A DNA stretch of 64,000 bases from Chloroflexota bacterium (GTDB lineage: Bacteria > Chloroflexota > Anaerolineae > Anaerolineales > Villigracilaceae). Under the pieces are notes generated by a model. It was given only the letters and a program-made list of their open reading frames with translations. It did not search any database and was not told where the DNA came from. A program made the position numbers and the translations under genes. Positions 6,033 to 56,086 of this stretch are shown piece after piece. The stretch is taken from NCBI GenBank assembly GCA_016234495.1, contig JACRBI010000054.1, positions 62,001 to 126,000 of the forward strand, read 5' to 3'. Position 1 is the first letter of the stretch; each line of letters opens with the position of its first letter.

Positions 6033-6782
6033 ATGACCAAACCACTCGCCCTCGTCACCGGCGGCGCGCACAGACTCGGAAAAGCCTTCGCGTTGACTCT
6101 TGCGCGCATGGGCTATGACCTTCTTCTGCATTACAACTCCGCCGAAGAACAAGCCCAACAAACGAAGAAAGAAATAGAATCCCTCGGCGTCAAAGTCCAC
6201 CTCGCCCAAGCCGACCTGACCCAGCCCGACCAGATCCAATCCCTCTTCGCCGCACTCGACACCCTCCTCATTCCTAATTCCTCATTCCTAATTCCTAATT
6301 CCTTTTCCCTTCTCATCAACTCCGCCGCCATCATGCCCGTCGCCAATCCGCGTGAACTTGAACTCAAAGATTGGGACTCCGCCCTCGACCTCAACCTCCG
6401 GGCGCCTTTTCTCCTCGCGCAGGGAGCCGCCAAACGCATGGCCGCAGGCGGACTGATCGTCAACATCTCAGACATCGCCGCGCAAAAATCATGGACTCGC
6501 TACCCATCCTACACAGTCAGCAAAGCGGGATTGGAATCACTTACCAAACTTCTCGCCCGTTCCCTCGCTCCAGACATCCGCGTCAACGCCATCGCCCCCG
6601 GGCTGGTCCTACAATCTGATGTTGTCACTCCCGAAGAATGGGATAAACTTGTCAGCCGGCTGCCGCTCAAACGTCCCGCCGCGCCTGATGAGATCACGTC
6701 TGCCCTTGAATTTCTCGTCAACAATCAATACATCACCGGCCAGACCATCGTTGTTGATGGTGGTTACTCCCTAATTACCTAA
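6033..6782 (+). CDS. Short-chain dehydrogenase/reductase
   Basis: 249 residues, classical SDR. It has the cofactor motif TGGAHRLG at residues 8-15, NSAAIMP in place of the NNAG motif, VNISD, the catalytic YTVSK (Tyr-x-x-x-Lys), and a C-terminal ITGQTIVVDGGYS. It resembles pteridine reductase/FabG-like enzymes, but the substrate is unknown. Residues about 78-90 (LIPNSSFLIPNS) are encoded by a five-unit heptamer array (6267-6301) inserted in frame between the second Rossmann strand region and NSAA. The protein should tolerate this as a loop. Confidence 0.9.
   Translation: MTKPLALVTGGAHRLGKAFALTLARMGYDLLLHYNSAEEQAQQTKKEIESLGVKVHLAQADLTQPDQIQSLFAALDTLLIPNSSFLIPNSFSLLINSAAIMPVANPRELELKDWDSALDLNLRAPFLLAQGAAKRMAAGGLIVNISDIAAQKSWTRYPSYTVSKAGLESLTKLLARSLAPDIRVNAIAPGLVLQSDVVTPEEWDKLVSRLPLKRPAAPDEITSALEFLVNNQYITGQTIVVDGGYSLIT
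6267..6308. repeat. Heptamer array inside the SDR gene
   Basis: Period-7 units CTCATTC, CTAATTC, CTCATTC, CTAATTC, CTAATTC, then a decayed CTTTTCC. It is in frame within the coding sequence. Confidence 0.85.
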
Positions 6783-6804
6783 TCCCTAATTACCAATTAC
6801 CTAC
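6767..6804. repeat. Heptamer-like array at SDR/GT-C junction
   Basis: CCTAATTA/CCTAATC-type units of 7-8 nt span the SDR stop codon and end immediately before the ATG of the next gene. Similar unit sequence recurs at 54487-54511. Confidence 0.7.
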
Positions 6805-8418
6805 ATGCCCTCCCCAAAAAAACTCGACCTCTTGATTGCCATCCTTCTCATCGCCATTGCCCTTCTCTATGCTGTGCAATTCGTGGATTTTTCCATCCCG
6901 CCCTTTGAAGATGCCGCCATGCTCATGCGCTACGCCCAGCACCTGGCAGGTGGTCACGGCATCGTCTGGAACATCGGCGAACATCCCGTAGACGGCGCTA
7001 CAGATTTTCTTTTCATGGTTGCTTCTGCCACGCTTATTAAACTTGGACTCACCGTCGGCCAGTCTGTTCGCGGCCTTGGCTTTATTGCGCATCTTCTGAC
7101 CATCCTCATTGTCTACTGGACAAACCGACGAGTCAACAATGCCAGCGTTTTATTTTCTTTTTTAAGCGGACTGTACCTCGCCTTTGGCACTGGACTCTCC
7201 TACGTAGCTGCCTACTTCGGGACGCCTTTCTTTGCCCTTGCCGCCGCATCCACCTGGACTTTAGGCCTGCTCCTGATTCAAAAAGAGGACTCTCCCTTTT
7301 GGCTTTCCCTCGCCTTTGCCCTCAGCGGACTTGTCACCGGACTCATTCGCCCTGAAGGCGTCATCCTTGCTGCGTTGATGTTACTTGCGGTCATCATCAT
7401 GCGTGGACTTAACAAGTCTATTTCACTCATCGTTATATTTGCGGCGGTTTTTCTTGTGCTTGGTGGCGCATATTTCATCTGGCGTTGGAATTACTTCGGT
7501 TATCCACTGCCCAATCCGTTTTACAAAAAAGGCGGCAGCGCCCTGCACTGGGACTCGTTCAATGGTTCCTTGCTGAACACTTTGCGCCTGTGCCTGCCGA
7601 TGGTCATTGCATTCATTCTTGGCTTTCGTTCGCGCGAAACCACAAGGCTGACTCTTGCATATCTCGTTCCCATCATTGGCTTCGCATCTGCCTTCATTCT
7701 GATCTCGGACGAGATGAACTACGGCGCGCGCTTTCAATACGCACTCGTCCCCATTGCGCTCATGTCGTGGACTCGGCTTGCGGGTGGATTCAAATTCTCG
7801 TGGCCGGACCAACTGTCAGTTAGGGAAAGAAGCGCGCATTTCATCGCGTTAATATTTTTGTCGATGAGTCTCGTCTATTATTCGTGGTTTCAGAATTGCT
7901 TTCTGACATCCTATCAACAGACTTGCACGACTGCTTATGAACGTGACGGCCGTTATGAGATGGGCAAACTTCTGGCGGAATATCGCGGCAAAGGCTATGT
8001 GATCGCGACGACTGAGGCGGGTTTGCTCCCGTATTATTCGGGCTGGGATGCGCTTGATGTGTGGGGCTTGAACGACCAGTTCATCGCGCACAACGAATTG
8101 ACCGCGGAATATTTGGACAAGTACAAGCCCGAGATCATCATGTTCCATGATTATTACTCGCCGCTCGTGCCGCCCAAATTGACCGAAGCCAACCTCGCGC
8201 AAAAATGGTTCGGCATGACCATCAAGTTGAAAGAGTATGCTGAGGCGAATGATTACGTGCTCGCCGCAGTCTTTGGCGACAGCCCGTACGACACGCATTA
8301 TTATTTTGTGAGAAAAGATTTCACCGACAGCAAACGTCTGATCGAGCAGATATCAACGATGAAAAATTATTACTATCCTACAACAGGAAAGAAATCCATT
8401 AATTATGCAAAGCCATAA
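6805..8418 (+). CDS. GT-C type polytopic glycosyltransferase-like protein
   Basis: 537 residues with about 10-11 hydrophobic segments. After the first membrane helix comes an acidic loop motif (FEDAAMLMRYAQ...GHGIVWN). This places it with the large Chloroflexota GT-C families related to ArnT/PMT enzymes, which use polyprenyl-linked sugar donors outside the membrane. The C-terminal soluble part (about 370-537) contains IATTEAGLLPYYSG and DVWGLND, hallmarks shared with the proteins at 54515 and 56043. A role in surface glycan or protein glycosylation is inferred. Confidence 0.75.
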   Translation: MPSPKKLDLLIAILLIAIALLYAVQFVDFSIPPFEDAAMLMRYAQHLAGGHGIVWNIGEHPVDGATDFLFMVASATLIKLGLTVGQSVRGLGFIAHLLTILIVYWTNRRVNNASVLFSFLSGLYLAFGTGLSYVAAYFGTPFFALAAASTWTLGLLLIQKEDSPFWLSLAFALSGLVTGLIRPEGVILAALMLLAVIIMRGLNKSISLIVIFAAVFLVLGGAYFIWRWNYFGYPLPNPFYKKGGSALHWDSFNGSLLNTLRLCLPMVIAFILGFRSRETTRLTLAYLVPIIGFASAFILISDEMNYGARFQYALVPIALMSWTRLAGGFKFSWPDQLSVRERSAHFIALIFLSMSLVYYSWFQNCFLTSYQQTCTTAYERDGRYEMGKLLAEYRGKGYVIATTEAGLLPYYSGWDALDVWGLNDQFIAHNELTAEYLDKYKPEIIMFHDYYSPLVPPKLTEANLAQKWFGMTIKLKEYAEANDYVLAAVFGDSPYDTHYYFVRKDFTDSKRLIEQISTMKNYYYPTTGKKSINYAKP

Positions 8419-8420
8419 GA

Positions 8421-8475
8421 TAGACCGTAGACCATTGACCATGTTTATCGTCCATTGTCCGTTGTCTATCGTCAA
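8421..8475. repeat. Heptamer array with inverted arms
   Basis: Units TAGACCG, TAGACCA, TTGACCA, then after a one-base phase slip TCGTCCA, TTGTCCG, TTGTCTA, TCGTCAA. The right half is a degenerate inverted copy of the left, so the array could fold into a hairpin between two genes. Confidence 0.85.
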
Positions 8476-8963: not shown

Positions 8964-9049
8964 CCACGAAGGGTCACTTAAGGAACACAAGGTTGAGAGA
9001 TTTTTCATCGTGTTCTTTGTAACGAAAAGAAATTTAGTAAAAGCGAAAA

Positions 9050-9084
9050 CATAATTCATCCTTCATAATTCATAATTCACCCTT
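9050..9084. repeat. Heptamer array before the aminotransferase gene
   Basis: CATAATT, CATCCTT, CATAATT, CATAATT, CACCCTT: five period-7 units ending 5 bp before the ATG at 9090. Confidence 0.83.
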
Positions 9085-9089
9085 TTCCT

Positions 9090-10214
9090 ATGCATCTCCC
9101 TCCATTCAAACTTGAACGCTACTTTGCCAAATACGAATTCAACACTGAATTCCTGCTCTGCTCATCAGACTGCGAAGCCATGTCCATTGCGGATTTGCTC
9201 GCATTCGAAGATGGAGCAGCGGAGAGGTTCCAGCAGACCTGGCTGGGCTATACCGAATCACAGGGAAGCCCGGCTTTGCGCAAAGAGGTTTGTAATCTCT
9301 ACACTTCCATTCAGCCCGAAGACATCCTTGTCCATAGCGGGGCGGGGGAGGCGATCTACCTTTTCATGCACGCCATGCTGACTGCCGGTGATCATGTTAT
9401 CGTGCATTCACCCGGCTACCAATCCCTTGCAGAAGTGGCGCGTGGAATCGGCTGTGACGTCAGCCCGTGGCTGGCGCGCGAGGAAAATTCCTGGGCGCTC
9501 GACCTTGACGAACTGCGCGGACTCCTCCGACCGAGTACGAAGGTCATTGTCATCAACACACCGCACAACCCGACAGGCTATCTCATGTCCCGCGCGGATT
9601 TTGATGCCCTGAACAAATTCACTCAAGAAAATAACCTGCTTCTATTTTCAGACGAGGTCTACCGCGAATCAGAATATGACCCTGCCAATCGTCTGCCCGC
9701 TGGCTGTGACTATGGCGAGCACGCTGTCTCGCTGGGCGTGACTTCCAAAACGTACGGACTGGCTGGCTTAAGAATCGGCTGGATCGCCACGAAGAATAAA
9801 AAAGTCTACGAAAACATGGCCGCGCTCAAAGATTACACTACCATCTGCAACTCCGCGCCAAGCGAATTTCTCGCGGAAGTAGCCATGCGCCACCGCACAA
9901 GACTGGCCGAGCGGAATCTCAATATCATCAAACATAACCTGACCGTCATTGACGATCTTTTCACTCATTACCCGTCCCTTTTCACCTGGACTCGTCCGCA
10001 GGCAGGTTCGATGGGATTTCCAAAATTGCTTCAAGGTGACATCGAAGACTTCTGCGATAAACTTGTTAAACAGGCCGGCGTTTTGCTTTTGCCTGGCACC
10101 ATGTATGATGAATCCAACAATCATTTTCGATTGGGCCTCGGCAGAAAGAATCTTCCGCAAGCTGTGGCGAGATTGGAAGAGTACCTCTCGCAATTCGCAA
10201 ATCCAAAATCGTAG
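9090..10214 (+). CDS. PLP-dependent class I/II aminotransferase
   Basis: 374 residues, fold-type I. Visible motifs are GAGEAIYLFMHAML (cofactor phosphate region), NTPHNPTGYL, SDEVYRESEY (Asp that pairs with the pyridine nitrogen), SKTYGLAGLRIGW (Schiff-base Lys near residue 220) and a C-terminal FRLGLGR arginine. It resembles the aspartate aminotransferase/capreomycidine synthase-like branch, but substrate specificity cannot be assigned. The start directly follows a heptamer array and no Shine-Dalgarno is obvious. Confidence 0.88.
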   Translation: MHLPPFKLERYFAKYEFNTEFLLCSSDCEAMSIADLLAFEDGAAERFQQTWLGYTESQGSPALRKEVCNLYTSIQPEDILVHSGAGEAIYLFMHAMLTAGDHVIVHSPGYQSLAEVARGIGCDVSPWLAREENSWALDLDELRGLLRPSTKVIVINTPHNPTGYLMSRADFDALNKFTQENNLLLFSDEVYRESEYDPANRLPAGCDYGEHAVSLGVTSKTYGLAGLRIGWIATKNKKVYENMAALKDYTTICNSAPSEFLAEVAMRHRTRLAERNLNIIKHNLTVIDDLFTHYPSLFTWTRPQAGSMGFPKLLQGDIEDFCDKLVKQAGVLLLPGTMYDESNNHFRLGLGRKNLPQAVARLEEYLSQFANPKS

Positions 10215-10230
10215 ATCCAAAATTGATCAA
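10189..10230. repeat. Heptamer array across aminotransferase stop and next start
   Basis: CGCAATT, CGCAAAT, CCAAAAT, CGTAGAT, CCAAAAT, TGATCAA. The array supplies the last codons and stop of the aminotransferase and the TTG start of the following gene. Confidence 0.8.
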
Positions 10231-11080
10231 ACTCACTCGTCCCCTTCACTTGTTGCTCACCGCGCTGACATATACCCTCGGCGCCAGCGTCCCTGCCTAC
10301 CTCGGAAGACCCCTCAACGCCGGGGTATTCTCGCTTGGCTTGGCAGGGATTCTGCTCGCACAACTGAGCATGTTTCTACTGGCTGAAGTTTTTCGCCCGC
10401 ACAACGAACCGCTCGTTGAAAACGAAACTCCCAAACAAAAAGAGACTCTCCGCAATAGTGCCTTATATGTTTCGATTGCCGCGCTGACAGTCACCGCCTT
10501 CATCGCCTATCTTCTTTACATCAATCAAGCTCTTGTTCTTTCCTCTTTCATCTTTCTCATTTCATCCTTCATCCTTATTCTTTTTTATGCCCTCCCACCC
10601 TTCCGCCTGCTTGACCGCGGCTTCGGCGAACTGACTCTCGCCGCGCACATCGCCTATGTCATTCCATCCATCGGATTTCTTCTGCAAGCGAAAGAGAATC
10701 ATCGCCTGCTCATCGTCATCATCCTTCCACTGACCGCGCTCGGCCTTGCATATTTTCTCATCCTCAATTTCATATCTTTTCCCTCCGACCAAAAATATCA
10801 ACGCGCCACACTCCTGCGCCTGCTCACTTGGGAACGCGCCGTGCCTCTCCATCACAGCCTGATCGTGCTGGCTTATGTCATCTTTGCCATCGCGCCTATT
10901 CTCGGCTTCTCCATTCTCTGGCCTGCCTTCCTCACACTTCCATTTGCCATTTTGCAGATTCTTCTCCTGCGCCACATCTCACTCGGCGGTAAACCAAACT
11001 GGACTCTGCTCAACGTCACCGCGCTCGCCGTCTTCGGCCTCACAACTTATTTTCTGACTCTCACCTTTTGGATCCGCTAA
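10223..11080 (+). CDS. UbiA-like integral membrane prenyltransferase homologue (divergent)
   Basis: 285 residues with about 8 hydrophobic helices. The beginning (RPLHLLLTALTYTLGASVPAYLG) is typical of MenA/UbiA prenyltransferases. The first Asp-rich motif expected after helix 2 is absent (LLAEVFRPHNEP instead of NDxxDxxxD). The second is only partly kept (FPSDQKYQRATLLRLL). It may be an inactive or repurposed member, or have altered metal binding. The TTG start 8 bp after the previous stop has no clear ribosome-binding site. Residues about 107-119 are encoded by another heptamer array. Confidence 0.65.
   Translation: MIKLTRPLHLLLTALTYTLGASVPAYLGRPLNAGVFSLGLAGILLAQLSMFLLAEVFRPHNEPLVENETPKQKETLRNSALYVSIAALTVTAFIAYLLYINQALVLSSFIFLISSFILILFYALPPFRLLDRGFGELTLAAHIAYVIPSIGFLLQAKENHRLLIVIILPLTALGLAYFLILNFISFPSDQKYQRATLLRLLTWERAVPLHHSLIVLAYVIFAIAPILGFSILWPAFLTLPFAILQILLLRHISLGGKPNWTLLNVTALAVFGLTTYFLTLTFWIR
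10543..10580. repeat. Heptamer array inside the UbiA-like gene
   Basis: TCTTTCA, TCTTTCT, CATTTCA, TCCTTCA, TCCTTAT. It encodes hydrophobic residues of a membrane helix in frame. Confidence 0.6.
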
Positions 11081-11110
11081 CCTTCAACCTTCAACTTGAA
11101 ACCTTCAACC
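11081..11110. repeat. Heptamer array before moeA
   Basis: CCTTCAA, CCTTCAA, CTTGAAA, CCTTCAA, CCC. It sits between the stop at 11080 and the moeA ATG at 11118. Confidence 0.85.
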
Positions 11111-11117
11111 CAGACTC

Positions 11118-12377
11118 ATGCCTGAATTTTTGACTCTCCTCCCCCCCGACGAAGCTCGGACTCTCCTGCTTTCGCATCTTCCTTCGCCGATAATTGACTC
11201 TGAAACAATAGACATGATTCACGCTTTCGGCCGCTTCACCGCGTCTGACACATTCGCGCCGCACCCATTACCCGACTTCCCCCGCACCACCGTAGACGGA
11301 TACGCCGTCCGCGCACGAGATACCTTTGGTGCGACCGACTCACTCCCCGCATATCTCACCTTGATCGGCGAAGTGCCAATGGGCGACACGCCGTCGTTTG
11401 AAATTGGTTCCGGTCAATGCGCCTTGATCCACACCGGCGGAATGCTCCCAGACGGCGCAGACGCGGTTGTGATGATCGAATACACACAACATATCGTAGG
11501 GGCGGGGTCACCCCGCCCTGAAATTGAAATCTTTAAATCCGTCGCCGATGGCGAGAATCTCATCCGCATTGGCGAAGATGTTTCTCAGGGACAGTTGGTT
11601 CTCCCTAAAGGGGCTTTGATTCGTCCCGCAGAAATCGGCGGATTAATGGCGCTGGGATTCACATCCATCCATGTTGCCAAAAAGCCGCGCGTTGGCTTGA
11701 TCTCAACCGGCGACGAAGTCATTGACCCAAGCCAAACTCCGCGCCCGGGGCAGGTACGCGATATTAATTCATACACCCTTGGTGCGCTGGTTGAGAAATC
11801 TGGCGGGGAGGCGATCCGCTATGGGATTTTTAGTGACAACTTTCAGGTATTAAAAGAAGCGGCGGCGAAGGCGCTATCCGAATGTGACATGCTCATCATC
11901 ACCGCAGGCTCATCCGCATCGACGAGGGACATGACCGCCGAAGTCATCCGCACTTTGGGCGAGCCCGGCGTGCTGGTGCATGGCATCAACACGCGGCCCG
12001 GCAAACCGACGATCTTGGGAGTGTGCAACGGCAAGGCAGTGATCGGCCTGCCGGGTAACCCGGTTAGCGCGCTGGTCAATGGGTATTTGTTCGTTGCGCC
12101 GGTCATCGAAAAAAATTTGGGCGCATTGCCGAAACCCAAAGCCACTGTGCAAGCAAAACTCACAGTGAACTTGCCTTCGCAGGCAGGCAGGGAGGATTGG
12201 TGGCCGGTGAAGCTAGTGGTCAGTGGTCAGTCGTCAGTGGTCAGTTTTCTGGCTGACCCGATCTTCGGCAAATCCAACCTCATCTTCACCCTTGCCTCTG
12301 CCGATGGGCTTTTGCGCATCCATCCCGATGCCACAGGCTTAAGCGCAGGCGAGATGGTTGAAGTTGTGCTGATTTAA
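11118..12377 (+). CDS. moeA: Molybdopterin molybdenumtransferase MoeA
   Basis: 419 residues, the usual MoeA length. It inserts molybdate into adenylylated molybdopterin during molybdenum cofactor synthesis. Family motifs: FPRTTVDGYAVRA (domain I), the GGMLPDGADAVVMIE strand, STGDEVIDP, a MoCF-like domain with ITAGSSASTRD and RPGKPTILG, and GLPGNPVSA. The G-G-(S/A) turn typical of the family reads AGSSA here, a small deviation. Two repeat-derived inserts are in frame: a palindrome at 11496-11519 (residues about 126-134) and a GGTCAGT-type heptamer array at 12217-12245 (about 366-375). Confidence 0.93.
   Translation: MPEFLTLLPPDEARTLLLSHLPSPIIDSETIDMIHAFGRFTASDTFAPHPLPDFPRTTVDGYAVRARDTFGATDSLPAYLTLIGEVPMGDTPSFEIGSGQCALIHTGGMLPDGADAVVMIEYTQHIVGAGSPRPEIEIFKSVADGENLIRIGEDVSQGQLVLPKGALIRPAEIGGLMALGFTSIHVAKKPRVGLISTGDEVIDPSQTPRPGQVRDINSYTLGALVEKSGGEAIRYGIFSDNFQVLKEAAAKALSECDMLIITAGSSASTRDMTAEVIRTLGEPGVLVHGINTRPGKPTILGVCNGKAVIGLPGNPVSALVNGYLFVAPVIEKNLGALPKPKATVQAKLTVNLPSQAGREDWWPVKLVVSGQSSVVSFLADPIFGKSNLIFTLASADGLLRIHPDATGLSAGEMVEVVLI
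11496..11519. repeat. Palindromic element in frame in moeA
   Basis: GC-rich inverted repeat GGGCGGGG-TCA-CCCCGCCC preceded by GTA. It encodes VGAGSPRP within domain III, where other family members have a short loop. Confidence 0.75.
12217..12245. repeat. Heptamer array in frame in moeA
   Basis: GTGGTCA, GTGGTCA, GTCGTCA, GTGGTCA, GTTTTCT. It encodes the repetitive VVSGQSSVVS in the C-terminal domain. Confidence 0.85.
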
Positions 12378-24755: not shown

Positions 24756-26600
24756 TTACATGACCTCTGGCGCTTGAATATCCAGTAAGCGGAGCGCATT
24801 TTCGATGGTTTGCTTTGCCGCCATCACCAATTGCAAACGCGCGTTTCGTATTTTTGCATCGTCTGTCTGCAAGACATTCACCGCATGATAGAACGAGTGA
24901 AATGCGTTCGCCAGATCGTACGCGTAGGCCGCCATCACCAGTGGACGGTACTCATTCGCCGCCTGCTCCACCGTCTGCGGGAAGCGCGAGATGAGTTCGA
25001 TCAATTCGATCTCATGCTTTGTTAATTCGTAGTCGAAGGTCGAAGGTCGAAGGTCGCCCGACTTTTGACCCTTCGACAAGCTCAGGGCAGGCTCTTCAAC
25101 TTTTGACTTCTTCAAAATTGAATTCGCCCGCACATAAGCATTCTGAATATACGGCCCCGTCCTGCCGTCAAAAGATAAAGCCTCGTTGATGTCGAAAACA
25201 ATATCCTTGTTGTTATCCACCGAAAGCATGGAATAGACCAACGCGCCTAAACCAATTTGAGTCGCGATCTTCTCCCGCTCACTGACAGGAACATCGCCGC
25301 TCTTTTCAGATTCAACCGCCAGTACACGCCTGACCGCTTCATCTGCCACGTCCTTGAATAAGACCACATGTCCGCGCCGCGATGACATGGCTCCCTCGGG
25401 CAGGCTCACAAAGCCATATCCCAGATGATGGCATTTCTCGGCCTGCGGGAAACCCCACAACTTCAAAATGGCAAAGGCCTGTTGCAAGTGCAATGATTGG
25501 CGCACATCCACAACGTAGATGGAACGGTCAACCTGATATTGCTCAAACTTCATTTTGGCCAATGCAAGATCTTTTGTAAGATACAGCGTTGTGCCATCTG
25601 AACGTAAAAGAACATTGGTGCGATATTTTTCTTTTGTCAGCCCAAGCTTCTCGTCAATTTTCACGATCACCGCTCCGCCTTGCGGACGTTCATCGGTTGC
25701 AATATCTCTGGCGATCAATTCATCGACGATCACTTTGGATGGCTCATCGACATCGCTTTCGTAGAACCAAACATCCATTTTTACATCGAGCATTTTCAGC
25801 ACTTCGCGCAGTTCTTCCAGACTCCACTCGCGCGTCACGCGCCATAATTCGCGAACATGCTCATCGCCTGCATCCCATTTGCGATACATCTCGCGCCGTT
25901 CGGCTTCATATACTTCGCGCTGGGCGGTCTGTTCAGGCGTTTCATTTTCCTTTTTCTCAAGCAGGGAAGTGGCTTCCACATAAAGTTTCGCCAGCCATTG
26001 ACCGCGCTCATGCACGCCCACAGGTTCCTGCCCTTTATAAAACTTTTCATAAATCCACATCACGGTGATGACGCCCAGTCCCAGGTCACCGGGGTAGGAT
26101 GCGCGGATCGTTTCAAAACCTGCGAACTCCACCAGCCGCGCAAGCACTTCGCCTAAAATTGTATTGCGCGCATGTCCAATATGAAATGAATGATGCGTAT
26201 TCGGCTGGGCGTACTCCACCATGACGCGTTCATTCTTTTTCGTGCCCCGCCCAAAGTCCGCGCCTGAAGAAAGCACCTCATCCACCACGCGCTGGGCATA
26301 TTCGGATGTTTCGAAATAGATGTTCAGATAGCCTTTGACCGCTTCAATGTGACTGATGCCCGGCACGCTTCCCAACTGACCTTTGACCTGCTCAGCCATC
26401 TCCTGCGCTCTCTGCGGGACGGGTTTTCCGCCCTTGCCCGCGCGCGCTTCGTTTGCGGCGGTCTGGAAAAATGATGTGGCAAAACCCCATTCGCCCGAAA
26501 AGGGAATGGGCTGCCACTTAAGCTCTGCCAGCGGAATATCATTTGCGGCACAAAACCCTTTTATTTTTCCTTCGATGATTTGCTGTTCTATATTAAACAT
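24756..26600 (-). CDS. argS: Arginyl-tRNA synthetase
   Basis: 614 residues, class I synthetase that charges tRNA-Arg. The Arg_S N-terminal additional domain (1-95) leads to the HIGH-type signature near residue 135 (NTHHSFHIGHARN). RSDGTTLYLTKDLAL, GAMSSRRGHVV (KMSKS equivalent) and the C-terminal anticodon-binding DALR domain follow. Residues about 496-523 (PALSLSKG and flanks) are encoded by a repeat insertion at 25032-25113. A TATAAT box on the minus strand at 26631-26636 is a likely -10. AGGA lies 11 nt before the ATG. Confidence 0.95.
   Translation of the reverse strand: MFNIEQQIIEGKIKGFCAANDIPLAELKWQPIPFSGEWGFATSFFQTAANEARAGKGGKPVPQRAQEMAEQVKGQLGSVPGISHIEAVKGYLNIYFETSEYAQRVVDEVLSSGADFGRGTKKNERVMVEYAQPNTHHSFHIGHARNTILGEVLARLVEFAGFETIRASYPGDLGLGVITVMWIYEKFYKGQEPVGVHERGQWLAKLYVEATSLLEKKENETPEQTAQREVYEAERREMYRKWDAGDEHVRELWRVTREWSLEELREVLKMLDVKMDVWFYESDVDEPSKVIVDELIARDIATDERPQGGAVIVKIDEKLGLTKEKYRTNVLLRSDGTTLYLTKDLALAKMKFEQYQVDRSIYVVDVRQSLHLQQAFAILKLWGFPQAEKCHHLGYGFVSLPEGAMSSRRGHVVLFKDVADEAVRRVLAVESEKSGDVPVSEREKIATQIGLGALVYSMLSVDNNKDIVFDINEALSFDGRTGPYIQNAYVRANSILKKSKVEEPALSLSKGQKSGDLRPSTFDYELTKHEIELIELISRFPQTVEQAANEYRPLVMAAYAYDLANAFHSFYHAVNVLQTDDAKIRNARLQLVMAAKQTIENALRLLDIQAPEVM
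25032..25113. repeat. Composite repeat insertion in frame in argS
   Basis: Three GAAGGTC heptamers, then a palindromic CCTTCGACAAGCTCAGGG element, then a partial inverted copy of the heptamers (CTTCAACTTTTGACTTC). The reading frame stays open and adds about 27 residues between the catalytic and anticodon-binding domains. Confidence 0.85.
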
Positions 26601-39785: not shown

Positions 39786-39789
39786 TTAA

Positions 39790-39852
39790 AGTGTCAAATG
39801 TGTCGAAGTATCAAATGTGACACCTTGACACCTGACACCTCGACACTTCACC
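39790..39852. repeat. Heptamer array with inverted arms before the GDPD gene
   Basis: Left units GTGTCAA, ATGTGTC, GAAGTAT, CAAATGTG; right units ACACCTTG, ACACCTG, ACACCTCG, ACACTTC. Period 7-8, with GTGTC on the left complementary to GACAC on the right. Confidence 0.8.
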
Positions 39853-44565: not shown

Positions 44566-44591
44566 TGTAGTCAAATTCCAAAACACAAAAC

Positions 44592-44629
44592 AAAAAATCC
44601 CCGCAGGCATCAGCCCGCGGGGATTTTTT
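44592..44629. terminator. Bidirectional terminator
   Basis: 13-bp stem AAAAAATCCCCGC with complement and a 12-nt loop between convergent genes; poly-A and poly-T ends serve both strands. Confidence 0.88.
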
Positions 44630-45999: not shown

Positions 46000-46027
46000 T
46001 TTTCACTTCTCCTTTTTTGATTTTGAA

Positions 46028-46075
46028 TTGACAACTGATAACTGACGACTTCTCACTGGTCACTCTCCACTATAA
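46028..46075. repeat. Heptamer array at the end of the EamA gene
   Basis: TTGACAA, CTGATAA, CTGACGA, CTTCTCA, CTGGTCA, CTCTCCA, CTATAAA: seven units in strict 7-nt phase. The array runs into the last codons of the EamA gene at 46060. Confidence 0.85.
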
Positions 46076-48634: not shown

Positions 48635-48809
48635 GAGAACCCCGCTTATGCCGTGTACTGCCAGGTTTTGAACCTGCAAGTGCAGGTGGGTCCCTACCTA
48701 GAAACGCCGCCTTGGCTCAGGCCTATCGCGTTATTTCTATTAAGTTAAGAACCCTTTTAATATGTATTGGCTCAAAACGTGAAGGCAATATCACGAACAC
48801 AGCAGGGCT
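48635..48809 (-). ncRNA. ssrS: 6S RNA
   Basis: About 175 nt on the minus strand. The 5' end AGCCCTGCTGTGTTCG and the 3' segments GACCCACCT...AGGTTCAAAACCTGG and CACGGCA...GCGGGG match the conserved 6S pattern (5' CCCTGCxGTGTTCG, 3' ACCCACCT, AGGTTC, CACGGCA, GGGG). The 5' and 3' ends pair to form the closing stem (CCC-GC with GC-GGGG). TTGAGCC lies near the central bubble, and the GGGT/ACCC pair starts the apical stem. 6S RNA mimics an open promoter and sequesters the housekeeping RNA polymerase, mainly in stationary phase. No clear terminator follows. Exact ends are estimated. Confidence 0.82.
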
Positions 48810-48815
48810 GAAATT

Positions 48816-53233: not shown

Positions 53234-54499
53234 TTGAGAGCATCCTTTCAACCCCCGCCAAGATCATTAACGACTCGTGATTATTTATTCATCACACTGG
53301 TTGTGATTTTGTTCCTTGCAATTTCAACGGGGCTTGTCTACTTCAACCTCACGCTCAAAGGCGGCGGCGATTTTTATGTCCACTGGGTTGCAAGCCGCGG
53401 ATTCATTGTTGATCGAATTGACCCATACAGCGGGCGGGTCCCTGCGCTTGTTCAACAATTGGTTTATGACGGCGCGGCGAAGGCAGGGGACGAGCCTTAT
53501 ATTCTGGATACGCCCCTTCAGATTCTCCTGCTCTATTTTCCTTTTTCGCTTCTCTCCGACCCGCAAATTGCCCGGGCGATATATACCTTGATCCTCGAAC
53601 TGGCATTGCTCGGACTCGCCGTCCAAAGCCTGCGCCTCACCGATTGGGAAATGCCGCCAGTCTTTGCAGTTCTATTTGTGGTTTTTGCAGGATTTAATTT
53701 TTATTCCTATCAAGCCATCCTTGAAGCCAGCCCCGTCCTGTTGCTGGGATTTATCTACGCTGAAATTTTGCTCCTGCTCCGCACCGACATGGACGAACTC
53801 ACCGGCGCACTCCTGGCGGTATCCGTTTACTTTTGGGAAGTCGGTACGCCGTTCTTGTTTCTTGTCTGCCTTCGTTTATATTATGAAAAACGTACCCGCG
53901 TTTTTTCCGGCTTCTTCATGTCGGGTGCTGTTCTCCTGATCATTTCGTTCCTCGGCTACCCGGGCTGGATTCTCCCTTTCCTGCGCGCCGTCGCCAACAA
54001 CCTGCGCGCCGACTTTGGGTTTAACGTCTTTGTCGCGTTTGCCCGGCTTTGGCCTTCTCACGGAAATACTGCCGCATGGGTGTTGATTGTCACGCTCGTC
54101 ATTGCCCTCGGGTATGAATGGAATCTGGCGCGCAGCGGCGAGCCGCGCCGCTTTTATTGGGCGGCCTGCCTTTCGCTGGCGGCTGCCCCTTTGCTTGGCT
54201 TCCGCACTGAAATGGAACATCTCGCCGTGCTTGTCATTCCGCTGGCATTGGTCTTTGCCATCATCTATCAGCGCTGGCAAAGGTTTGGCGCTGGCCTGGC
54301 GTATTTGCTCTTGCTGATTGCGCTTTTCGTTCCCTGGGCAATTTACTCTTTCGCTTTCAACCGTTTTGGAGCAATCGCACAAGAGATCACATTCCTATTC
54401 CTGCCGTTTTTCACCATCATTAGCTTATACTGGATTCGCTGGTGGGCGATCCGTCCGCCCCGCATCTGGACCGACCTCGTTCCCCGCCCTAATCTCTAA
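53234..54499 (+). CDS. Polytopic membrane protein, GT87/DUF2029-like
   Basis: 421 residues with about 9-10 hydrophobic helices from a TTG start right after the GNAT stop. GGGDFYVHWVASRGFIVDRIDPYSG is the acidic first extracytoplasmic loop, seen in polyprenol-phosphate-mannose-dependent GT87 enzymes. It is the first of three tandem glycosyltransferase-like proteins and probably works in the same surface glycan pathway. Confidence 0.7.
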   Translation: MRASFQPPPRSLTTRDYLFITLVVILFLAISTGLVYFNLTLKGGGDFYVHWVASRGFIVDRIDPYSGRVPALVQQLVYDGAAKAGDEPYILDTPLQILLLYFPFSLLSDPQIARAIYTLILELALLGLAVQSLRLTDWEMPPVFAVLFVVFAGFNFYSYQAILEASPVLLLGFIYAEILLLLRTDMDELTGALLAVSVYFWEVGTPFLFLVCLRLYYEKRTRVFSGFFMSGAVLLIISFLGYPGWILPFLRAVANNLRADFGFNVFVAFARLWPSHGNTAAWVLIVTLVIALGYEWNLARSGEPRRFYWAACLSLAAAPLLGFRTEMEHLAVLVIPLALVFAIIYQRWQRFGAGLAYLLLLIALFVPWAIYSFAFNRFGAIAQEITFLFLPFFTIISLYWIRWWAIRPPRIWTDLVPRPNL

Positions 54500-54511
54500 T
54501 TACCAATCTCC
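54487..54511. repeat. Heptamer array between glycosyltransferase genes
   Basis: CCCTAAT, CTCTAAT, TACCAAT, CTCC. It covers the stop codon at 54497-54499 and ends 3 bp before the next ATG. Confidence 0.75.
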
Positions 54512-54514
54512 ACG

Positions 54515-56086
54515 ATGTCCTTTCGCGCTTATTTCATCCTCTTCCTTCTCGGGCTTGCACTCCCTGTCATCTTTGCTCAATTCCAACCGATGCCGGGCTA
54601 CCTTGATTCGGATTATTACTTCGCGGGCGGAATTCAACTGGCCACCAGCAAGGGATTCACTGAACCCTATTTATGGAATTACCTCGACGGCTCAACCTCG
54701 CTCCCGCATCCATCTCATAGTTATTGGATGCCTCTCGCTTCCATCGTCGCCGCGCTGGGGATGTGGCTCACAGGTCAAACCACCTATGCTTCGGCGAGAC
54801 TCGTTTTCTTTTTGATCGCGGCGCTCGTCCCGCCTCTCATTGCTGCACTGGCTTACACATTTTCACAGCGGCGCGACCTCGCCGTCACCTCAGGACTCCT
54901 TGCCATCTTTTCCGTTTACAGCGCGCCCTTCGTCGGTGTCACGGACAATTTTGGGCTTTTCATGCTCTTTGGCGGATTGTATTTCTTCGCCGTCACGAAA
55001 CTGATGAACGATCCAACCCGCGCACGGAACTGGCTGATCCTTGGCCTGCTCTCCGGCCTGATGACCCTTTCCCGCAGTGACGGTTTGCTCTGGCTCGCGC
55101 TCACGTTTTTATTTGCGGCGCGTAACCTGCAACTTGCAACACGCACCCCGCCTTCTGCGTTCCGCTTTCCTTATTCCATCTCCCTTGCTTTCCTCGGCTT
55201 CCTCCTCGTCATGTCACCGTGGTATGCGCGGAACTTGAATGTTTACGGCACGCTCATGGCGCCCGGTGGAAGCCGCGCTCTCTGGCTGCAAAACTACGAC
55301 CAGACTTTCACCTATCCGGCGACTTTGCTAACCAGAGAATCATTCCTCGCCTATGGCTGGGACAACATACTCGCCGACAGGCTGTGGGCATTGAACATGA
55401 ATCTGCAAAGCGGATTCGCCGCGCATGGCGCCATCATATTATTTCCGTTCATCATTGCCGGCATCATTTATTACCGCAAAGACGAGCGGGTCAAACTTGC
55501 AGGGTTGGCATGGCTGATTCTTTTTTTCGTCATGACCTTTCTCTTTCCATTTGCAGGAGCGCGCGGAGCGTTCTTTCACGCAGGCGCGGCGCTCCAGCCC
55601 ATGTGGTGGACTCTCGCGCCGTTGGGTCTTGAGGAGATTCTACTGTCCCTGAGAAGACGCAACATTGGCAAGGACCAGAACCGGGTTGTATTCCGAAGCG
55701 CGCTTGTCATGGTGGCGATGATCCTCACATTCTATGTTGTCTATCTCCGCATCTTCACTTTAGGCTGGGGCGAGACCGATGCCGATTACCCCGCAGTGGA
55801 GCAATTCCTTGTGGAAAATGGAATCGAGAAAAACGATATTGTCATCGTCCGCAATGCGCCCGGATATTATTTGCAAACAGGTCGTTCTGCGATCACCATT
55901 CCGTATGGCAGTGAGCAAACAATAATTCAGGTTGCAGAGCAGTTCGATGCCGATTATTTAATTCTTGAACCTGAGGCGGCGTTGAAGCCTTTGCAAAGTT
56001 TGATGAACGAACCTGAGGGTCATAAAAACTTTATTTATCTGGGTGAACTCGATGGCGCGCGACTCTTTAAACTTGAAATTAAATAA
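54515..56086 (+). CDS. GT-C type polytopic glycosyltransferase-like protein
   Basis: 523 residues with about 11 hydrophobic helices. The first loop is MPGYLDSDYYFAGGIQLATSKGF with acidic residues in the GT-C catalytic position. The C-terminal soluble domain (about 420-523) has IVRNAPGYYLQTGRSAITIP. Residues about 202-211 (RNLQLATRTPP) are encoded by a heptamer array at 55121-55147. Its end overlaps the next gene by 35-44 bp, consistent with translational coupling. Confidence 0.75.
   Translation: MSFRAYFILFLLGLALPVIFAQFQPMPGYLDSDYYFAGGIQLATSKGFTEPYLWNYLDGSTSLPHPSHSYWMPLASIVAALGMWLTGQTTYASARLVFFLIAALVPPLIAALAYTFSQRRDLAVTSGLLAIFSVYSAPFVGVTDNFGLFMLFGGLYFFAVTKLMNDPTRARNWLILGLLSGLMTLSRSDGLLWLALTFLFAARNLQLATRTPPSAFRFPYSISLAFLGFLLVMSPWYARNLNVYGTLMAPGGSRALWLQNYDQTFTYPATLLTRESFLAYGWDNILADRLWALNMNLQSGFAAHGAIILFPFIIAGIIYYRKDERVKLAGLAWLILFFVMTFLFPFAGARGAFFHAGAALQPMWWTLAPLGLEEILLSLRRRNIGKDQNRVVFRSALVMVAMILTFYVVYLRIFTLGWGETDADYPAVEQFLVENGIEKNDIVIVRNAPGYYLQTGRSAITIPYGSEQTIIQVAEQFDADYLILEPEAALKPLQSLMNEPEGHKNFIYLGELDGARLFKLEIK
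55121..55147. repeat. Heptamer array in frame in the GT-C gene
   Basis: TAACCTG, CAACTTG, CAACACG, CACC. It encodes a hydrophilic loop in the membrane protein. Confidence 0.65.

Follow-up and report, generated by a model that had tools for sequence, protein, structure and literature searches.

Local period-7 repeat arrays at gene junctions and inside coding slots of Villigracilaceae and other Chloroflexota

Background

Heptamer arrays are a known kind of bacterial repeat, and some of them lie inside genes. The tandem heptanucleotides of cyanobacteria, termed STRR, were reportedly described by Mazel et al. in 1990, and the tRNA-Leu intron of Nostoc carries degenerate heptamer hairpins. The arrays described here share with STRR a period of 7 nt and a multi-copy nature, in support of the likeness to cyanobacterial heptamer repeats drawn in the initial annotation of this DNA, but they occur in Chloroflexota relatives instead of filamentous cyanobacteria, use many unit sequences and also occupy coding slots.

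Several further systems have been published and are cited here from the available portions of the respective papers. TAACTGA direct repeats occur in Beggiatoaceae, Cyanobacteria and Bacteroidetes (PMC4679880). These heptamer tandems, mostly intergenic and near start codons, are mixed with other heptamers in some genomes, differ mostly by 7-nt indels between two close Cyanothece strains and are absent from matching junctions of some relatives (PMC4679880). The present arrays are likewise heptamer tandems, but one word is dominant in the main genome of the TAACTGA system, with related heptamers rare or absent as repeats, whereas many words occur here; moreover, TAACTGA copies in ORFs are mostly peripheral, whereas ours fill internal slots of conserved enzymes (PMC4679880). 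TAACTGA is not the unit of the present arrays: single arrays do carry the word, as in the SDR-GT junction of locus L044, but most units in the window differ from it.

Calothrix has three tandem heptanucleotides, and GGGNATC heptamers of Xanthomonas and Nostoc, with one main word, form quadruplexes and are prominent at differing genes in two related species (PMC4692102). They share period 7 and dispersal with the present arrays, are often in inverted pairs and are mostly intergenic (only 7-11% intragenic); they differ in being G-rich, whereas the present arrays use many words and are mostly G-poor, with locus L070 as an exception (PMC4692102). The same paper noted the over-representation of heptamers in bacteria, and its available part offered no explanation for it. 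In Geobacter metallireducens, four tandem heptanucleotides occur in 49 copies within and between genes, and heptamers inside genes are therefore not new in themselves; these elements, however, have one consensus, GGGACCG, and can be aligned at the nucleotide level, and slot turnover is not reported in the available part of the paper (PMC2700814). Like the tandem repeats of Borgs, 43-65% of which lie within ORFs, the present arrays evolve rapidly, but Borg ORF units are divisible by three, whereas the ORF arrays here, that of moeA included, have a 7-nt unit and stay in frame only through their total length (PMC9879509). The available parts of PMC4060949 and PMC7015867 contained nothing on heptamers.

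The claim that no named family exists in Chloroflexota was nearly right, the exception being Chloroflexus aurantiacus, in which 22 satellites derived from the heptamer (GATAGRA)n have been reported; these belong to the same phylum and are heptamer-derived, but comprise one word in one species (PMC6749651). Beyond these satellites, a literature search with most subscription journals outside its scope did not find heptamer repeats and Chloroflexota names joined, nor, within the same scope, orthologous in-frame slots with concerted heptamer words or palindrome swaps.

Results

Period-7 arrays in the window

The window, by which we mean the whole 64-kb stretch analyzed, contained 12 lag-7 islands (at least 15 matches in 21; a threshold of 14 was used for the junction-presence and indel analyses), compared with 0 in three Markov shuffles, and the period of 7 nt is thus real. 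Other lags gave 0-6 islands, the higher values belonging to harmonics of 7 or multiples of 3.

The initial annotation had listed ten arrays. Judged singly against 9,588 shuffled 80-nt segments, with p values uncorrected for the prior picking of the sites, five were strong (6767, p=0.0001; 8421, 10189 and 11081, each p=0.0005; 9050, p<0.0001) and three were moderate (46028, p=0.0026; 54487, p=0.0077; 39790, p=0.0077 and a better score at lag 8, p=0.001). Site 8421 comprises two of the 12 islands. Site 12372 was weak (p=0.029), and 13321 had no significant lag-7 signal against these segments (p=0.086). The arrays were also not confined to gene junctions, as had been thought: five strong arrays that had escaped the list lay inside called ORFs (6259-6316, 10533-10589, 12208-12254, 25023-25064 and 55122-55177). 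The features are as follows, with lag-7 matches in parentheses.

6259..6316, forward strand: heptamer array TTCCTAA/TTCCTCA in the SDR gene 6033-6782 (19/21), a coding slot near residue 75 found in 58 aligned orthologs
6773..6805, forward strand: array AATTACC/AATCCC at the SDR-GT junction, reaching the start codon (16/21, p=0.0001)
8415..8475, forward strand: array GACCRTN, then a degenerate inverted copy, between GT and DinB and upstream of an AAGGAG site (two islands of 15/21, p=0.0005; fold z -2.4)
9046..9089, forward strand: array CATAATT/CATCCTT at the DinB-aminotransferase junction (17/21, p<0.0001)
9957..9989, forward strand: aminotransferase coding slot, residues 290-300, of a fixed 33 nt (33 nt in 46/46 aligned rows), heptameric (CTNNTCA) in several orthologs and sub-threshold in the window itself
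10188..10217, forward strand: array AAATCGN/AAATCCA, lying across the aminotransferase gene end (15/21, p=0.0005)
10533..10589, forward strand: array TTTCATC in the UbiA-like gene 10223-11080 (16/21)
11074..11110, forward strand: array AACCTTC at the UbiA-MoeA junction (15/21, p=0.0005)
12216..12251, forward strand: 36-nt in-frame slot of moeA, residues 367-378, VVSGQSSVVSFL, with GTGGTCA/GTCGTCA (19/21)
25023..25064, reverse strand: array GACCTTC forming one palindrome arm, within the minus-strand called ORF 24756-26600 (18/21, fold z -3.8)
39786..39848, forward strand: palindromic array of mixed 7/8-nt period, upstream of ORF 39856 (fold z -2.7; p=0.001 at lag 8 and p=0.008 at lag 7)
44570..44599, no strand assigned: array CAAAACA between ORFs (15/21)
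46014..46057, reverse strand: array TGACAAC/TGATAAC between minus-strand ORFs (14/21, p=0.0026)
54480..54520, forward strand: short array CTAATCT/CTAATTA at the 54499/54515 junction (13/21, p=0.0077)
55122..55177, forward strand: degenerate array in the called ORF 54515-56086 (16/21)

Rfam, searched at the gathering score over the whole window, gave no match on the arrays. Its sole match, away from the arrays, was a 6S RNA (RF00013, 87.1 bits; 48635-48811, minus strand).

Distribution in the genome, the family and the phylum

The source genome comprises 4.10 Mb in 57 contigs, and its statistics were derived from 464 kb (11%). The genome-wide excess of lag-7 identity over shuffles that had been predicted was present in this sample: 44 islands were found versus 4 after shuffling, and 18 of the 44 fell for the most part within the 35 kb that was called noncoding. 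Lags 5, 10, 11 and 13 gave 0-4 islands, and lags 6, 9 and 12 gave 27-28, mostly in coding DNA. The window was richer than the rest of the sampled DNA (12 islands/64 kb versus 32/400 kb).

Across 77 Chloroflexota loci (1.30 Mb, many from Anaerolineales), 226 islands were counted versus 13 after shuffling. Villigracilaceae (family f1) stretches, own genome excluded, gave 37 versus 4. Beyond this family, the counts were 5 versus 2 in other families of the order, 5 versus 3 in other orders of the class and 35 versus 4 in other Chloroflexota classes, where 31 islands came from four genomes (G074, G101, G300 and G381). Lags 6, 9, 12 and 15 were also raised in the family and phylum samples (7-31 islands; 25-31 in f1 versus 37 at lag 7), an effect that codon structure would have. 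In one sample ten of 40 stretches, and in another two, were short because of contig ends and weigh less. Period-7 arrays are thus patchy across the phylum.

An exact three-copy ACTGATN pattern was found in 20 of 400 Chloroflexota genomes, namely 12 among the 25 genomes sampled from f1 and 8 among the 375 others, with 1 match in the own genome. Of 151 genomes from the order, 10 carried GACYTTY arrays, and each of these belongs to f1. Several GACYTTY arrays are head-to-head pairs a few nt apart (G095, G104, G058 and G000); in the pairs inspected, the minus-strand member comes first (GTCRAAR then YTTYGAC).

Most of the records compared are metagenome assemblies, and assembly artefact, like chance low complexity, has to be weighed for this reason. 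However, the excess over shuffles, the frame-keeping length ladder described below and the recurrence of arrays in many independent assemblies reduce the probability of such an origin to a negligible level, and we count it as refuted.

Units, vocabulary and folding

The initial annotation took the units at different sites to be unrelated, and this did not hold: they share a degenerate grammar and a vocabulary. Only 142 distinct canonical units were found among 294 arrays, compared with 228-241 after letters were shuffled within units. A common degenerate pattern, approximately S-A-H-T-T-W-Y, carried 3.91 bits versus 2.2-2.9 in shuffled controls, and 3.02 versus 1.9-2.5 bits with duplicate units removed. 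On the strand read, G made up 280 and C 536 of the 2058 unit letters.

A limited vocabulary copied about genomes by transposition or ectopic conversion, in the manner of small dispersed repeats, would produce such an economy of words. The recurrence of words at other loci and in other classes fits a mobile family of this kind, as do six Y1 transposase matches in the genome. However, the proportion of shared 8-mers within a genome was 0.105 for all pairs and 0.091 for pairs more than 400 nt apart, compared with 0.092 between genomes, and permutation gave a mean of 0.093 and a maximum of 0.127. Because there is no clear within-genome excess, copying between arrays is not needed, and the vocabulary belongs to the family, not to single genomes; ectopic copying within the genome was rejected on the same ground. 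In addition, a slot of fixed length is periodic without net insertion and the units of 36-nt arrays differ in concert (both described below), and we consider a mobile heptamer family quite unlikely.

An inverted right half, claimed for many arrays, proved to be a minority trait. A fold z below -2 was obtained for 15% of the junction arrays (n=169) and 9% of the interior ones (n=130), compared with 14% of random noncoding segments (n=148). Exchange of the right half with that of another array left the fold unchanged on average (mean z 0.01). Of the listed sites, 8421 (z -2.4) and 39790 (z -2.7) form modest palindromes and 46028 forms none (z 0.0). Extreme palindromes, with z from -4.0 to -7.3, were limited to ten arrays, which use several types of word; despite these, the hairpin was rejected as the common principle.

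Position, strand bias and orthologous junctions

Among 288 arrays in 2.03 Mb, 149 lay at junctions (131 between co-directional, 12 between divergent and 6 between convergent genes), 115 were inside ORFs and 24 were unclassified; the interior and junction counts are approximate, as the ORF caller was simple and greedy. For the 131 co-directional arrays, the median gap was 0 nt on the side of the upstream stop codon and 7 nt on that of the next start. The G content of the sense strand was 0.15-0.16 in arrays versus 0.21 in background spacers, which hints at selection or strand bias.

Many relatives retain the gene order SDR-GT-DinB-AT-UbiA-MoeA, and orthologous junctions can therefore be compared. 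The UbiA-MoeA junction measures 0-4 nt in L038, L050, L053, L055, L058-L061, L067, L068, L110 and others, and holds an array of the AACCTTC, GACCTTY or CCTGATA type in the window, L039, L044, L045, L052, L057, L062-L065 and L108. Similarly, the GT-DinB junction carries differing words, palindromes or neither among relatives. Array presence at five junctions (31, 31, 43, 44 and 63 loci) fitted the MoeA tree no better than shuffled labels did; AT-UbiA junctions and the UbiA slot were in part counted by script, not by eye. Base-for-base conservation in distant relatives, which would have marked the arrays as ordinary regulatory sites, was seen neither at these junctions nor at the MoeA slot.

These data bear on a selected RNA function, in which C/A/T-rich, G-poor leaders would bind a protein such as S1 and tune the translation of operons, as has been proposed for TAACTGA repeats (PMC4679880, available part). 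Although the 131 of 288 arrays between co-directional genes, the short median distance to the next start and the G-poor sense strand (0.16 versus 0.21) are what such a role would predict, it is distinctly improbable, given that arrays are not conserved at orthologous junctions, that 115 of 288 are interior and that the G-rich GTGGTCA orientation occurs in moeA.

Period-8 arrays (GTAGACAN and similar) that contain variable positions were also observed, namely in the DinB-AT junctions of L062, L059 and L071 and the UbiA-MoeA junction of L102. In the DinB-AT spacer of L062, a period-8 array is joined to 7-nt arrays of other words.

Periodicity and indels in coding slots

The four coding slots compared were picked on account of arrays already observed in them; their rows were then taken without selection. 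Lag-7 identity exceeded that of synonymous resampling in all four: 0.43 versus 0.28 in AT, 0.36 versus 0.28 in SDR, 0.50 versus 0.36 in MoeA and 0.39 versus 0.30 in UbiA (72 rows). Among lags 4-16, lag 7 had the highest z in each slot, and lag 14 gave the second-highest z or one close to it; these z values treat related rows as independent. Nucleotide-level periodicity in these slots therefore exceeds what the protein sequence accounts for. Lags 4 and 11 were raised too in UbiA (z 11.6 and 8.0), so part of its signal is general low complexity. The AT slot measures 33 nt in 46/46 rows, and its periodicity thus came without net insertion. In coding DNA outside detected arrays, no lag-7 excess over synonymous shuffles was found. 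A diffuse lag-7 mutation bias is hereby ruled out, and the process is not general.

In 40 hand-picked locus pairs, isolated indels were multiples of 7 in 13 of 35 cases within arrays versus 10 of 112 outside, and the remaining 22 of the 35 were not multiples of 7. One set of the compared pairs, approximately 77-89% identical in DNA, was too far apart for single events to be seen. Separately, L042 and L110 carry a 24-nt in-frame insert starting with CCCTTCGAGAGCCTCAGGG inside the heptameric UbiA slot.

The MoeA slot

MoeA has the Pfam domains MoeA_N, MoCF_biosynth and MoeA_C, and its slot lies between the motifs W-W-P-V-K-L and A-D/E-P-I-F-G-K. In an AlphaFold model (mean pLDDT 70.3), the slot falls between strands 360-369 and 376-381, as if at the tip of a beta-hairpin of the C-terminal domain. 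Such a modeled position would suit selection at the protein level for repeated peptides, with the DNA period as a by-product. We regard this as extremely unlikely: in each of the four slots, periodicity at the nucleotide level lies above that of synonymous resampling, and the same period occurs in noncoding junctions.

From the named loci and 40 fetched moeA ORFs, counting only slots that fitted the flank pattern, 89 distinct slot sequences were obtained. A heptamer array filled 29, a CCCTCTCC-type palindrome 21, a CACAGAG palindrome 3 and other sequence 36, nine of the latter being 36-nt stretches below the array threshold. States (H, P, C and N) were assigned by thresholds and word patterns that were extended after the rows had been viewed, L049 being a weak P. 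Slot words include GTGGTCA, ATCGTCA, ATCGAAA, ATCGGGA and GTCGAAA, and the slot of L070 repeats GGGAATC by rotation.

Array lengths at this slot form a ladder. Twenty-five of the 29 fit 36+21k (21 x 36, 2 x 57, 78 and 99 nt), and those off the ladder measure 33, 39, 48 and 69 nt, the last two again 21 apart. The 21-nt ladder has the look of 7-nt steps seen through a reading-frame filter. In the 36-nt arrays (n=21), unit identity was 0.819 within an allele and 0.650 between alleles at the same position; within exceeded between in 21/21 alleles, and the maximum of 2000 column shuffles was 0.703. For all thirty 36-nt alleles, unselected for arrays, the values were 0.710 versus 0.558 (24/30). The units of 36-nt arrays thus change in concert at a fixed length.

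Slot state was compared with a quick tree of 67 MoeA proteins from which the slot had been removed (SH-aLRT support only). It required at least 30 changes, compared with a mean of 32.3 (26-39) in 200 label shuffles, and heptamer and palindrome rows alone required 15 versus 13.0 (9-16). Slot state therefore has no phylogenetic signal. At 18 two-row forks, nine pairs agreed in state and nine differed, seven of them heptamer versus palindrome: L072/L078 (SH-aLRT 100), L049/L054 (98), L063/L065 (96), L091/L096 (95), L052/L062 (93), L077/L107 (89) and L064/L067 (85).

The missing phylogenetic signal and the nine discordant forks are expected if species living together share a pool of heptamer, palindrome and plain versions of each slot and swap them by homologous recombination in the conserved flanks, which would leave the species tree blind to the slot. 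Allele exchange of this type is the main rival for the swapping of slots, and it may act alongside a local slippage process. However, nine forks agree in state, and exchange alone yields no period 7, no 21-nt ladder and no concerted units; we judge it unlikely as the explanation of the arrays.

The CCCTCTCC palindrome is a dispersed repeat in its own right. Its exact cores were found in 15 of 21 genomes, with up to 47 per genome, whereas reversed-pattern controls gave 0-4. Rickettsia palindromic elements, which are approximately 100 nt or more and are tolerated in frame inside genes, resemble the CCCTCTCC alleles more than the heptamer arrays. Palindromes with CACAGAG/CTCTGTG arms were seen at the GT-DinB junctions of L072 and L078 and in the moeA slot of L083, L088 and L278. 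A second variable slot of moeA (11496-11519) holds an in-frame, GTAG-led palindrome, GGGCGGGG-TCA-CCCCGCCC, and several orthologs have other palindromes there. Six Y1 transposase (PF01797) matches in the own genome are possible movers of palindromic repeats.

Discussion

The arrays have a period of 7 nt, step along a 21-nt ladder in a coding slot and carry an excess of 7-nt indels, which supports the common generating mechanism suggested in the initial annotation. The explanation that we favor, and regard as an even call, is local 7-nt slippage and realignment at permissive sites. Under this proposal, the arrays would stem from a process that acts locally on DNA with a 7-nt step of its own, wherever the sequence tolerates it, the permissive sites being gene junctions and the loop-coding stretches of proteins. 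If a 7-nt misalignment is transient and realignment follows, substitutions would be copied from the base 7 nt away, and such templated substitution would homogenize units with the length unchanged. A misalignment left unresolved would add or remove a unit, and in coding slots only frame-keeping steps (21 nt = 3 x 7) would survive. Arrays would thus arise, homogenize, change their word in concert, decay and give way to other repeats, e.g., palindromes, with a turnover that would be quick relative to speciation. The agent is probably misalignment and realignment in replication or repair, the process is presumably intracellular rather than allele exchange, and the arrays are probably mostly neutral. 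The shared unit grammar counts against this proposal, because plain slippage from random seeds predicts none.

Two candidate agents were rejected. Loss of mismatch repair is not the cause, as MutL is present in 24/24 genomes. A Y-family polymerase (PF00817) was found in 15/24 genomes and was absent from G074, although the 20-kb stretch of G074 held more lag-7 islands than any other stretch.

A countable readout of the process is provided by a coding slot whose units are concerted and whose 21-nt ladder is filtered by the reading frame. MoeA-family matches were found in 147 of 152 family genomes, some of which have a distant paralogue only, so this readout can be enlarged. The cause of period 7 thereby becomes a testable question.

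More broadly, an active mutational process that has a 7-nt register built into it and locally rewrites noncoding spacers and enzymes might exist in some bacterial lineages, a suggestion that we offer tentatively and hold to be rather doubtful. If it were true, templated substitution would proceed without a change of length, protein loops would be overwritten time and again by new heptamer words, and slots would be exchanged with palindromic elements faster than species diverge. Moreover, the patchy period 7 and the overlapping words (TAACTGA in L044, GGGAATC in L070) would go back to a feature of replication or repair that Cyanobacteria, Beggiatoaceae, Xanthomonas and several Chloroflexota classes have in common. 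The coding slots described here show in any case that repeat turnover can keep rewriting the loops of conserved enzymes.
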